This document shows positions 2,677-37,663 of a DNA stretch of 64,000 bases, in pieces. The notes beneath the pieces were generated by a model, which was not told the origin of the DNA, made no database searches, and saw only the letters and a program-made list of their open reading frames with translations. This stretch comes from Blautia faecicola. Its GTDB lineage: Bacteria > Bacillota > Clostridia > Lachnospirales > Lachnospiraceae. The position numbers and the translations under genes were made by a program. Within the stretch, counting starts at the first letter, position 1; each line of letters begins with the position of its first letter. The stretch lies in the NCBI RefSeq assembly GCF_004123145.1, contig NZ_SDKC01000001.1:1879501-1943500 (forward strand), read 5' to 3'.

Positions 2677-3758
2677 TCAGCGCCCCAGACCGCGAAACTG
2701 CTGTACTGCTGATCGATGAGGCCATTGCATCGGGGGCTACCTGCAAAAAGGCATGTGACCGTCTCGGGATCACGGAACGGACTTTCTACCGTTGGAAAAA
2801 ACGAAAGACAGATACGGATTCCTATGGGGATGGACGTCCTTCAGCAGATCACTCGGATCCTGCAAATAAGATATCGGCAGAGATACGCCGGGAGATCATA
2901 AGTATCTGTAACAGGCCAGAATACGCAAGCATGGCACCATGTGAGATCGTTCCTGCATTAGCCGATGAGGGGATTTATGTTGCCTCTGAATCAACCTTTT
3001 ACCGTGTATTGCGGGAAGAAAAAATGTTAAATCATCGTGGACGCAGCGAAGCACCAAAACACAACCGTCCATCTACATACAGCGCAACAGCTCCGAATCA
3101 GGTGTATATGTGGGATATCACTTATCTGAATGGACCACATAAAGGGATGTTTTATTACCTGTACCTTTTTTCAGACCTTTATGACCGTAGTATCGTTGGC
3201 TGGGAAGTCTACGAAGAAGAAAGTGCAGACTGTGCCAGCAGCTTGATCAAAAGGATCTGTCTGAAACAAGGCCGGCTCACTACAGAACCGTTAGTGTTAC
3301 ATTCTGATAACGGCTCACCCATGAAAGGGGCAACAATGCTGGCGACACTGTATCAGCTTGGAATCACCCCTTCAAACAGCAGACCGCGTGTGAGCAATGA
3401 TAATCCATACGCCGAAAGCCTATTCAAAACGCTGAAGTATCGTCCGAATTATCAGCCCAAAGGATTTGGAACACTGGAAGAGGCACGGGAATGGGTCAGC
3501 CTGTTTGTAAAGTGGTATAACCACGATCACCATCACAGTGGGTTGAAGTTTCTTACTCCATACCAGCGCCGCAGCGGCTTGTCTGATAAGATACTGGCCA
3601 AACGCAAAGAGGTCTACGAAGCTGCCAAAGCAGAGCATCCAGAACGTTGGAATGGACGTGCAACCCGTGACTGGAGTCTTCCAGATACAGTGTATCTGAA
3701 TCCGGATAAGATGCCGGAGCAGCTTGAAACAGAAGCTGAAAAGACTGCTGTATCATAA
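2673..3758 (+). CDS. IS3-family transposase OrfB, DDE integrase
   Basis: A 361-residue transposase. An N-terminal helix-turn-helix (CDRLGITERTFYRWKK) is followed by an HTH_21-like segment and the integrase core. The catalytic triad is readable as D148 (MWDITYL), D212 (LHSDNGSP) and E248 (NDNPYAESLFKTLK), with the DD(35)E spacing of IS3. The C-terminal WYNHDHHHSGL stretch is also typical. It starts at the ATG overlapping the OrfA stop. The frame is full length with no disruption, so the element may be mobile. Confidence 0.93.
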   Translation: MISAPDRETAVLLIDEAIASGATCKKACDRLGITERTFYRWKKRKTDTDSYGDGRPSADHSDPANKISAEIRREIISICNRPEYASMAPCEIVPALADEGIYVASESTFYRVLREEKMLNHRGRSEAPKHNRPSTYSATAPNQVYMWDITYLNGPHKGMFYYLYLFSDLYDRSIVGWEVYEEESADCASSLIKRICLKQGRLTTEPLVLHSDNGSPMKGATMLATLYQLGITPSNSRPRVSNDNPYAESLFKTLKYRPNYQPKGFGTLEEAREWVSLFVKWYNHDHHHSGLKFLTPYQRRSGLSDKILAKRKEVYEAAKAEHPERWNGRATRDWSLPDTVYLNPDKMPEQLETEAEKTAVS

Positions 3759-27066: not shown

Positions 27067-28347
27067 ATGGAACTTATGCAGGCAAAAATGCCTCTTCGCG
27101 GAGAGGTGAAGATTCCGGGAGACAAGTCGATCTCCCACCGCGCTGTGATGTTTGGTGCACTGGCTGACGGTACGACAAGAGTGACGAATTTTTTGCAGGG
27201 AGCGGATTGTCTTTCTACGATCTCCTGTTTCCGCAAGTTAGGAATCGATATTGAAAATACACAGGAGGAAATCCGGATTCATGGGAAAGGCCTTCACGGG
27301 CTTACTGCTCCGACAGAGATTCTGGATACCGGTAACAGTGGAACTACAACACGACTGATCTCCGGTATTCTTGCCGGTCAGAATTTTACCACAACACTTA
27401 CCGGTGACGCATCGATCCAGAGCCGGCCGATGGGAAGAATCATCAAACCGCTTTCTATGATGGGTGCTACGGTCGAGAGTCTGAAGGAAAACCAATGTGC
27501 ACCGTTACAGATTCAGGGACACCCATTGACTGCGATTCATTATCAGTCTCCGGTAGCCTCTGCGCAGGTCAAATCCTGCATCCTGCTTGCCGGACTGTAT
27601 GCGGACGGTGTCACATCGGTTACGGAACCTTATCTTTCGAGAAATCATACGGAGCTGATGCTCTCCCACTTCGGTGCACAGGTCACCAGTGAGGGAACCA
27701 CGGCTTCGATTGCTCCGGATCCGGAACTTCACGGATTGGATATTTCTGTTCCGGGAGATATTTCTTCCGCTGCTTATTTTATCGTGGCTGCTCTTTTGGT
27801 TCCGGGTTCTGAAGTGCTGATCAAAGATGTGGGAATCAATCCTACCAGAGATGGGATTCTTCGTGTCTGCAAGGCAATGGGGGCTGATATCACCCTGTTA
27901 AACGAACGGACAGCCGCCGGCGAACCGGTTGCTGATCTTCTGGTTCGACACAGTGAACTTCACGGTACGGTCATTGAGGGGGAACTGATCCCGACTTTGA
28001 TTGATGAAATTCCGGTTCTGGCGGTTTTGGCTGCTTATGCAGATGGAACTACGGTGATTCGAAATGCGGAAGAACTGAAGGTGAAGGAATCGAACCGACT
28101 GGATATTATGGTGAACAGTCTGGGAGCTATGGGATGTGATATCGAGGGTACAGATGATGGTATGATCATCAGAGGTGGCAAACCGTTGCATCATGCTTCT
28201 ATCGACAGTCATCTGGATCACAGGATCGCGATGTCGTTTGCAGTAGCCGGTCTGGTTTCCGAAGGGGGAGTGGAAGTACTGCGGGCGGATTGTGTGGATA
28301 TTTCTTATCCGGAGTTTTATGCGGATCTTGGTAAGCTGATGAAGTAA
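27067..28347 (+). CDS. aroA: 3-phosphoshikimate 1-carboxyvinyltransferase (EPSP synthase)
   Basis: A 426-residue enzyme of the shikimate pathway that joins phosphoenolpyruvate to shikimate 3-phosphate. Conserved segments: GDKSISHRAVMFGALADG (residues 18-35), LDTGNSGTTTRLISGIL, DASIQSRPM, KSCILLAGLYADG, PGDISSAAYFIVAALLVPGS, and KVKESNRLD near the C-terminus. The G-N-S-G-T pattern resembles class II enzymes of Gram-positives. The start follows GTAAGGAGGATGTACAT. It ends 23 bp before a large palindrome that could end transcription. Confidence 0.95.
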   Translation: MELMQAKMPLRGEVKIPGDKSISHRAVMFGALADGTTRVTNFLQGADCLSTISCFRKLGIDIENTQEEIRIHGKGLHGLTAPTEILDTGNSGTTTRLISGILAGQNFTTTLTGDASIQSRPMGRIIKPLSMMGATVESLKENQCAPLQIQGHPLTAIHYQSPVASAQVKSCILLAGLYADGVTSVTEPYLSRNHTELMLSHFGAQVTSEGTTASIAPDPELHGLDISVPGDISSAAYFIVAALLVPGSEVLIKDVGINPTRDGILRVCKAMGADITLLNERTAAGEPVADLLVRHSELHGTVIEGELIPTLIDEIPVLAVLAAYADGTTVIRNAEELKVKESNRLDIMVNSLGAMGCDIEGTDDGMIIRGGKPLHHASIDSHLDHRIAMSFAVAGLVSEGGVEVLRADCVDISYPEFYADLGKLMK

Positions 28348-28370
28348 TATTTTTTATTGGCTAGAGGGAC

Positions 28371-28554
28371 GCCGAGAGCTGCGGGAAACCGGGGTGGACA
28401 ACATGGGCAGGGCAACTTTGAACTAGCCGCTAACTTCGACTATATTCACTTGGGTCAGCTGACCCAAGTGAAAGTCTTCGTAAGCGTCGGATTTCAAAGC
28501 TTGCCCTAACCGCCCATAAAGTGTTGTCCACCCCGGTTTCCCGCAGCTCTCGGC
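28371..28554. repeat. Long palindrome 1 in the aroA-phosphatase gap
   Basis: A 33-bp arm (28371-28403, starting GCCGAGAGCTGCGGG) is repeated perfectly as its complement at 28522-28554. The inside continues as imperfect pairing to a 28-base perfect palindrome in the centre (28445-28472, with GGGTCAGCTGACCC). The whole 184 bp can fold into one cruciform or RNA hairpin. No ORF is present. Its position just after the aroA stop would allow a terminator function, but there is no U-run. Confidence 0.85.
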
Positions 28555-28652
28555 TGTTTCCTGGCAAAACAAATTTGAAACAACCGTTAATTTTTCGTCA
28601 TATCTTTCCAGTTGCACGCAATGACAATTTTTATCGATACCCAGCCCAGCAG

Positions 28653-28980
28653 GGCAAAAAGATGCCTTTCAAAAGCATTTTGCGGGCGGTTAGGGCGAGT
28701 TTTAAGATCCTGTGTTTAGTAAGACTAGGCGATGAGCGGCTCTCCGCGAATCATGTACATCGTTGAAAAAACTCCCCATATCAATCACGCAGGATGCAGA
28801 TTCGAGTGTACAGGTAAAAAAACGTAGGCGTAGCGGGCTACGCTGAGGCTTTTTTGTCTGTGCAATCGGATTTGCAGACAAGCGAGTGATATGGGGATTT
28901 TTTCATAAGATGTACAAGTCGCACTTAACACATAGCTTAAAATCGTCCTGCCCACTGCTTTTGCAGGGGAGCTTTTTGCA
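28653..28980. repeat. Long imperfect palindrome 2 in the aroA-phosphatase gap
   Basis: Arms run inward from GCAAAAAG (about 28654) and its complement CTTTTTGC (about 28979). Strong inner blocks are TCCCCATATCAATCACGC (28773-28790) against GCGAGTGATATGGGGA (28882-28897), and GCGTAGCGGGCTACGC at the centre, followed by a T6 run on the plus strand. The left arm shares GGGCGGTTAGGGC with the complement of the right half of palindrome 1. Bases 28348-29005 thus hold no gene, only these two related palindromes. Confidence 0.75.
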
Positions 28981-29005
28981 ATTTGGGGCGTACGCCTTGA
29001 ATATC

Positions 29006-29644
29006 TTATTTGTAGAAATCTACAACATCTTCCGGATTATAGTACACTTTATCCTGCTCTTCTATCGTCGCTTTTCCATCTTTCACATCAATAATCGTTA
29101 CCGCGCAGTTTGGCGGTACGTGACCTCTCCAGAAGTCGTCTTTCCGGCCGTCAATGTAATAGAGAAAGGCCCGTGTCGAGCAGCCGTGTGCTGCTATTAG
29201 AATTGTTTTATTCTGGTAGTCCGGGTTGTGGATCAGATCCTCGTAGAAGGCACCGCAGCGGTCAATCATCTGCTGAATAGATTCGCCGTCTTTCGGTGGC
29301 TTGTAACCGAAGGGATCCGTGAAGAACTGTTCAAAATCTTTTGACGGAATCTGATAATTCTTCCTTCGACAGCAAAGCCCTTCCCATTCTCCGAAACTGA
29401 TCTCTTCTATTCTCTCATCCGTAAGAATCGGTATATTTCTGTCACCCAGTACCAGTCTGGCGGTCTCGTAAGCCCGCTTTAACGGGCTTGCGATTGCCAG
29501 GTCAAAATGCACATCTTTTAATTTTTCACCGGTGATTTTTGCAAGGCGGATACCATTTTCGTTCAGTTCAATATCCGTTCTTCCCTGCAGCCGTCCCAGT
29601 GTGTTCCATGGAGTTTCTCCATGACGAATCAGATATATTTTCAT
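29006..29644 (-). CDS. Histidine phosphatase family protein
   Basis: A 212-residue phosphoglycerate-mutase-like phosphatase. The catalytic RHG is in MKIYLIRHGETPWN; the second conserved block is ASPLKRAYETA, and the second histidine is in LIAAHGCSTR. These account for the phospho-His mechanism. The substrate is not readable; family members act on sugar phosphates or on alpha-ribazole phosphate. It starts 5 bp after pheT and belongs to the pheST operon. A second paralogue (51779-52396) lies in the cobalamin cluster. Confidence 0.88.
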   Translation of the reverse strand: MKIYLIRHGETPWNTLGRLQGRTDIELNENGIRLAKITGEKLKDVHFDLAIASPLKRAYETARLVLGDRNIPILTDERIEEISFGEWEGLCCRRKNYQIPSKDFEQFFTDPFGYKPPKDGESIQQMIDRCGAFYEDLIHNPDYQNKTILIAAHGCSTRAFLYYIDGRKDDFWRGHVPPNCAVTIIDVKDGKATIEEQDKVYYNPEDVVDFYK

Positions 29645-33286: not shown

Positions 33287-33553
33287 AAAAAAGCCCCGTC
33301 CTTCCAGTTTCCTGGAGGGACGAGGCAACTATCTCATAATCTCGCGGTACCACCCTGATTTCCGATTAAAAAATTAACGGACACTCATTAAGACTTAACG
33401 CGTCTGTACGTCTTCTCTTACTGTATTTTCAGAGAAGCAGCTCCGGTGGGAATCTCAATATGCATCTGAACTTAAAGGAGCTTGCAGCCGGTGACTCCTT
33501 CTCTCTGTAAGAAAATACATATCTACTGACACTTTCACAGCTTTTTTCTATCG
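33287..33553 (-). ncRNA. T-box leader (phenylalanine) of pheST
   Basis: The T-box sequence AGGGTGGTACCGCG (complement at 33342-33355) is perfect. It is followed by the terminator stem (33293-33326: GCCCCGTCCTTCCAG against CTGGAGGGACGAGGC) and a T7 run. Upstream is a stem I region with AGTAGA and a candidate specifier UUC (Phe) in TTTAAGTTCAGATG. Uncharged tRNA-Phe would stabilise the antiterminator and turn on pheST. The exact specifier is inferred from context. Confidence 0.92.
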
Positions 33554-37469: not shown

Positions 37470-37663
37470 TCTTTTTTTATAACCCCGGAGTGCCGTTTCC
37501 CTTTTTTTGACGCCTAGCGACTGCTAGGTGGGTGACCGCAGTATCTCTTTTGTCTTCCGCTGCGTAATGACGGCCTGACATCCAATCAACAATATAGGAG
37601 TCCCATAAACGTAAATGTAGGTTCAAAATAAAGAGAGGATCGTACACCCCAGGTGTTATTTCT
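37470..37663 (-). ncRNA. ssrS: 6S RNA
   Basis: The RNA is not coding and has a consensus promoter. Its 5' (ACCTGGGGTGT) and 3' (GGCACTCCGGGG) ends can form the closing stem. Internal landmarks match what I recall of Clostridia 6S RNAs: GAACCTACATTT, TGGGACTCCTATATTG, GGATGTCAGGCCG, and GCGGTCACCCACCT followed by a small hairpin CTAGCAGTCGCTAG. 6S RNA mimics an open promoter and binds RNA polymerase in stationary phase. The ends are estimates from the promoter and the closing stem. Confidence 0.85.

Follow-up and report, generated by a model that had tools for sequence, protein, structure and literature searches.

The 658-bp gap at positions 28348-29005 of the window, the 64,000-nucleotide stretch of Blautia faecicola DNA that was analysed, contains two long palindromes. 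These belong to a newly recognised family within a known general class, the extragenic palindromic elements. The plan of this family is unusual, in that a conserved, bulged core lies within private, perfectly paired arms. We consider it probable that both palindromes belong to a non-autonomous (REP/MITE-like) extragenic palindromic element family of Lachnospiraceae, in which pairing would be kept by template-switch repair.

The gap is bounded by aroA, on the plus strand and ending at 28347, and by a convergent histidine-phosphatase-like gene on the minus strand (29006-29644), both functions being read from the translations. Between these genes there are only short overlapping open reading frames, and both strands of the gap have predicted folds well below those of dinucleotide shuffles (-310.7 versus -190.9 kcal/mol for 20 shuffles, z -16, on one strand; -290.4 versus -181.0 kcal/mol, z -22.9, on the other). 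These results agree with the preliminary description of a gene-free gap with two long palindromes. The perfect 33-bp arms and the 28-base perfect centre of palindrome 1 were recovered, and palindrome 2, given there as about 330 bp, measures ~340 bp, with arms from ~28644 to ~28989 and an inner inverted repeat (28754-28786 / 28884-28916). A further claim, that four related copies of one unit form two head-to-head pairs, holds for the relatedness of the units and fails for their equality: GGGCGGTTAGGGC is found at 28516 (minus) and 28684 (plus), whereas shorter partner sequences, GGGCAGGGC / GGGCAGGAC, occupy the sites near 28404 (plus) and 28960 (minus); each of the two palindromes accordingly has unlike halves. 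With respect to the convergent gene on the minus strand (end at 29006), palindrome 2 is in the B, or sense, orientation (Table 1).

Table 1. Features of the two palindromes, in window coordinates.
Feature	Position	Strand	Description or basis
Palindrome 1, complete family member including feet	28366..28559	+	B orientation (sense to aroA), ~20 nt past the aroA stop codon
Palindrome 1, gene-proximal conserved foot GGGAC (GTCCC on A strand)	28366..28370	+	Foot alignment across genera
Palindrome 1, outer stem S1, left arm	28371..28403	+	Sequence only in own element and orthologue
Palindrome 1, conserved core	28404..28521	-	A orientation on minus strand: CACTTTATGGGCGGTTAGGGC...GCCCTGCCCATG; ~30 genomic copies, covariation
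Palindrome 1, core tip, perfect 14+14 palindrome	28445..28472	.	Sequence
Palindrome 1, outer stem S1, right arm	28522..28554	+	Complementary to left arm, 33/33
Palindrome 1, conserved foot TGTTT (ACA on A strand)	28555..28559	+	Conserved across copies
Palindrome 2, second family member	28640..28994	+	A orientation on plus strand; split by insertion
Palindrome 2, S1 left arm	28644..28676	+	Pairs well with right arm in sister genome
Inner miniature element in palindrome 2 core	28755..28915	+	Imperfect terminal inverted repeats GTACATC...GATGTAC; missing in sister genome
Palindrome 2, S1 right arm	28957..28989	+	Mutated in own genome

Both palindromes are present at the same locus in a sister genome (G001), which is an independent assembly of a second species. 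Palindrome 1 is 100% identical there, a finding that refutes, for this palindrome, both the recent birth and the assembly artefact that had been considered. Nor are the two palindromes inverted duplicates of one another. Their cores do align in inverted orientation (75% over 51 nt), but the arms show no relationship, and for each core there are closer relatives at other genomic sites. What survives of the proposed inverted duplication of one mobile or structured element is that the element is present twice. For palindrome 1, a local duplication in inverted orientation, a recent birth and an assembly artefact are thus all ruled out by the sister genome, the arms and the relatives of the cores, and as origins we regard them as extremely improbable.

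In the sister genome, palindrome 2 lacks the segment 28755-28915, its right arm pairs well and its GTCC foot is normal; in the B. faecicola genome this arm and foot are decayed (GTCC to GTAC). More copies of the inner segment, full and partial, occur elsewhere in the B. faecicola genome, one of which (L034) has TA flanks on both sides and another of which (at L032) sits within a different member of the palindrome family. Since the sister genome is without the insert and the insert is a repeated miniature element, the extra length of palindrome 2 appears to be a nested insertion in the B. faecicola lineage, or else reflects a loss in the sister. We suggest that palindrome 2 would have been split by this second miniature element after its own arrival. 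A different miniature element, bounded by CTAGAGCGTGTCTGAAAAA / TTTTTCAGACACGCTCTAG around a centre GTAGCCCGCTACGCC, lies at the flanks of L003, L011/L102, L025 and L027, and is polymorphic between the two species.

A search of the B. faecicola genome with palindrome 1 gave 34 matches at ~30 separate places, and palindrome 2 found partly the same places, plus others. Read on the A strand, a full copy runs from an ACA foot through the outer stem S1, the core CACTTTGTGGGCGGTTAGGGCAAGCTTTRARATCC... tip ...TAGTCGNAGTTA...TAGYTCAAAGTTGCCCTGCCCACG and S1' to a GTCC foot, forming a rod-like hairpin of ~190 nt. The outer stem (~28-33 bp) is near-perfectly paired and private to its locus, the core (~125 nt) has conserved internal loops, and the conserved feet, GTCCCYC / TGTG, lie outside the private arms. 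Core identity among copies is mostly 80-97%, and the S1 sequences are not alike.

The covariance search in other Lachnospiraceae that the preliminary description proposed found the family in 28 of the 397 genomes sampled, representing 25 genera; at most 8 candidates were scored per genome, so that copy counts per genome are minima. In a sample of the class, the only two genomes with matches are both Lachnospiraceae, and none outside that family carried the element. At least 120 stretches were returned by a pattern scan, in records of Blautia, Dorea and further Lachnospiraceae; among the matches listed, the records are Lachnospiraceae or broader Clostridia/Eubacteriales MAGs, including Blautia schinkii and Oliverpabstia intestinalis. 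BLAST searches of plasmid and phage collections gave no match, and Rfam 15, at gathering and relaxed thresholds, gave only chance matches for the window elements and those in 8 further loci. We found no prior description of the family in Lachnospiraceae in the open literature, although a paywalled one is possible. Two predicted viral contigs in IMG/VR (L341, 9089-9153; L342, 3328-3392) carry a divergent, shorter form of the hairpin, and in one genome with a single family member, that member has a TwoAYGGAY RNA (L154, 3359-3523, minus) next to it.

Long perfect palindromes are generally expected to disappear quickly. Here, ~30 palindromes per genome have survived across species; their sequences differ, yet their pairing is intact. 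Among 253 paralogue pairs, S1 is 53% identical and the core 82%, the random baseline for S1 being 46% (26-mers under the same aligner), and in the 30 pairs whose cores are >90% identical S1 still stands at 53%. By contrast, 15 pairs of orthologues between the B. faecicola and sister genomes are 94.1% identical in S1 and 93.6% in the core. Thus the arms are not simply faster-mutating; rather, copies differ in their arms while their cores are kept alike. An origin of the arms elsewhere in the genome was considered and no source was found, each arm matching only its own two places and its orthologue; the one exception, a segment at L016, belongs to a rearranged copy carrying another repeat.

When 19 copies from five genomes are aligned, 19 of 24 pairs show changes on both sides of the stem, with few one-sided intermediates, and 97.2% of the cells of the alignment are paired, versus 82.5% after shuffling and 29-41% after sliding. 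Sudden double changes of this type are predicted by hairpin template switching, which has been shown for RNA genes to yield multi-base compensatory changes and sudden perfect stems (PMC8794818). Both signatures are seen here, although in a dispersed element with locus-private arms and not in RNA genes. At L015 and L025, one half of the B. faecicola copy is the exact reverse complement of the other, and the sister-genome counterparts (L088 and L091, respectively) retain an imperfect arm form; these arms were made perfect in one lineage, apparently by hairpin-templated correction. Centres are swapped relative to the orthologue at L017/L083, L020/L083 and L023/L094 despite orthologous flanks, which points to exchange between copies, and centre deletions in the B. 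faecicola genome (L024) and in the sister genome (L102 and L104) are as expected of unstable palindromes. With its perfected arms, centre swaps and centre deletions between sister species, the family offers a natural archive of bacterial repair templated by hairpins. A related hairpin subfamily, GACAGCCTTTTGCTGG...CCAGCGGTTGTC, occurs at L087 (G001:C45) and in the flank of L024, with tandem copies in the sister genome and fewer in the B. faecicola genome.

We considered how these patterns might differ if the element were a structured RNA under selection, either free or within a 3' UTR, whose loops bind a protein or nuclease and whose hairpin protects or processes messages. Unpaired nucleotides are conserved across ~25 genera, helices covary, and the element lies in sense position shortly past stop codons. 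The core also has a modest excess of wobble pairs on one strand, with 35 G.T versus 17 A.C mismatches on the A strand (p = 0.018, related rows clustered), a weak hint that the A strand may be the one that folds for a purpose. This excess would fit a folded RNA, or a single strand, under selection and in that respect counts against the repair-maintained element family that we favour. However, the A strand is antisense to the adjoining gene, and isolated arm mismatches are divided between G.T (59) and A.C (55) in 45 Oliverpabstia and 108 other arms, so that there is no sign of selection on the arms as RNA. The lack of an Rfam match, the differences in copy number and sites between sister species, and a promoter signal that is not above chance at the elements likewise argue against a structured RNA, which we consider unlikely.

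The position of the family relative to genes is strongly biased. In genera other than Oliverpabstia, the median distance from the GTCC foot to the facing stop codon is 37 nt, versus 197 nt on the other side (p = 1e-9), and in Oliverpabstia the corresponding values are ~32 nt and 290 nt; the foot lies ~35 nt past a stop codon in most Oliverpabstia copies and in roughly half of those from other genera. A gene start nevertheless faces the GTCC side in 56 of 105 elements outside Oliverpabstia, and gene calls were simple longest-ORF calls, so that the rule is a strong preference and not a law. In low-copy genomes the neighbours are ordinary genes. The head-to-head arrangement noted for the window proves general: neighbouring members face each other in all 20 cases, comprising 16/16 two-member loci and 4/4 close pairs in the B. 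faecicola genome, of which the window pair is one.

An invariable facing arrangement at gene ends is what one would expect of a transcription barrier or bidirectional terminator that the host uses between convergent genes, and terminator-like matches do occur in the gap. They are found, however, only within the inner insert of palindrome 2 or at its decayed foot. The feet of the element, GTCCCYC and TGTG (ACA), are not U-tracts and, in contrast to an intrinsic terminator, no T-run directly follows the GC-rich stem; at L085/L208 and L090/L209 a separate terminator-like hairpin adjoins the element. Together with the gene starts that face the GTCC side, these observations make a dedicated barrier a rather improbable explanation. 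In the element family that we favour, any host effect would be that of a 3'-end hairpin, through message protection or as a roadblock to convergent transcription. The family is an unannotated, strongly structured gene-end feature of common gut bacteria, with a possible effect on termination or message stability.

A further explanation is that the core inserts at the tip of a pre-existing stem-loop, such as a terminator, and that the outer stems are target remnants, as for EFAR. Outside the feet, the left flank of a locus is complementary to its own right flank (mean score 8.1 versus 5.4 permuted; 6.9 versus 5.1 in Oliverpabstia), a level that 0 of 2000 permutations reached. This complementarity fits settlement in pre-existing stem-loops or, alternatively, a further outer stem of the element. 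Some outer stems are terminator-like with T-runs (L335), and the locus-private S1 would also be accommodated. Against this model, however, S1 lies inside the conserved feet, and a search for core-less hairpins with the same feet found only centre-deleted or collapsed copies. Moreover, L022 and L080, which are different loci, have arms and foot ~90% alike through GTCCCCTTTTTCAAT, after which they diverge, and the empty site at L009 is without an arm. We regard insertion into stem-loops as a less likely account of the arms. The likeness of L022 and L080 suggests movement of the whole unit, arms and foot included.

Several sites are occupied in one sister species only, and most of these differences are ragged. 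The cleanest empty site, L009/L201, is near-precise and lacks both a target duplication and an arm; absence of the element and deletion between GCC repeats explain it equally, and this single site is accordingly a weak point of the mobile-element explanation. A non-exhaustive search found no parental element or transposase and no gene within any copy, which also counts against that explanation. For each of the Y1, IS110 and reverse transcriptase families there are high-copy genomes that lack it, and all three are thereby ruled out as obligate partners; PF01797 (Y1_Tnp/RAYT), for example, has no match in G061, G118, G338 and G367, each with 5-8 scored copies. We suggest that copies would spread as folded single strands, with the enzyme supplied in trans, and settle near gene ends, perhaps at pre-existing stem-loops. 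The pairing of S1 would then be kept at the DNA level by hairpin template switching and not by RNA selection, and recombination between copies would homogenise cores but not arms. This scheme leaves the feet outside the private arms unaccounted for. In a quite unlikely alternative, an enzyme would recognise the conserved bulged core and the feet of a single-strand DNA element, each copy would gain or evolve a private, perfectly paired stem by fold-back synthesis, and facing pairs behind genes would act as a barrier to convergent transcription. If correct, such a fold-back element would represent a system of hairpin transposition or arm renewal unlike REP/RAYT, IS200/IS605 and classical MITEs.

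Several known systems resemble the family in part. Integron attC sites are imperfect hairpins whose bulges are conserved and whose paired stems vary, and they have strand polarity. Compared by description, the elements here are likewise imperfect bulged hairpins with variable stems and strand polarity; in contrast to attC, however, conservation lies in the centre instead of the ends, and single copies lie beside ordinary genes, no cassette arrays being seen. EFAR elements have modular centres and target stem-loops. Compared by description, the present family resembles them in its palindromes near gene 3' ends, its modular centres and its variable terminal stems. The Efa repeats of Enterococcus faecalis (PMC1590033) belong to another genus, and in the present family the feet lie outside the private stem. 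REPs are ~20-40 nt long, with a GTAG/GTGG head and RAYT transposases (PMC2817692). The family shares with REPs and BIMEs the extragenic palindromes in many copies, the compensating stem changes, the short conserved foot beside the hairpin, and the facing, inverted pairs in extragenic space (16/16 and 4/4 here), but is ~190 nt long, has GTCC/ACA feet and no GTAG/GTGG head, and is present in several high-copy genomes without Y1/RAYT-type genes. Similar to the MITEs and small repeats of Firmicutes, exemplified by BOX, RUP and SPRITE of pneumococcus (PMC10969869), it is non-autonomous, intergenic and folding, with nested insertions. It differs in having no constant terminal inverted repeat, the outer stem being locus-private (53% versus 46% at random), no target duplication at its near-precise empty site or deletion (L009/L201), and no parental IS found.

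Other repeats and structured RNAs were observed in the course of this analysis. The left flank of L089 carries a repeat of 80 nt, GACATATCATGCAATAAAGGCATTTTGGCTTGTATGTCTCGGG..., at query positions 3381-3461, which recurs dozens of times in near-identical form in both G000 and G001. Within the window, a T-box leader (33313-33547, minus) and a 6S RNA (37478-37658, minus) score above the Rfam gathering threshold.
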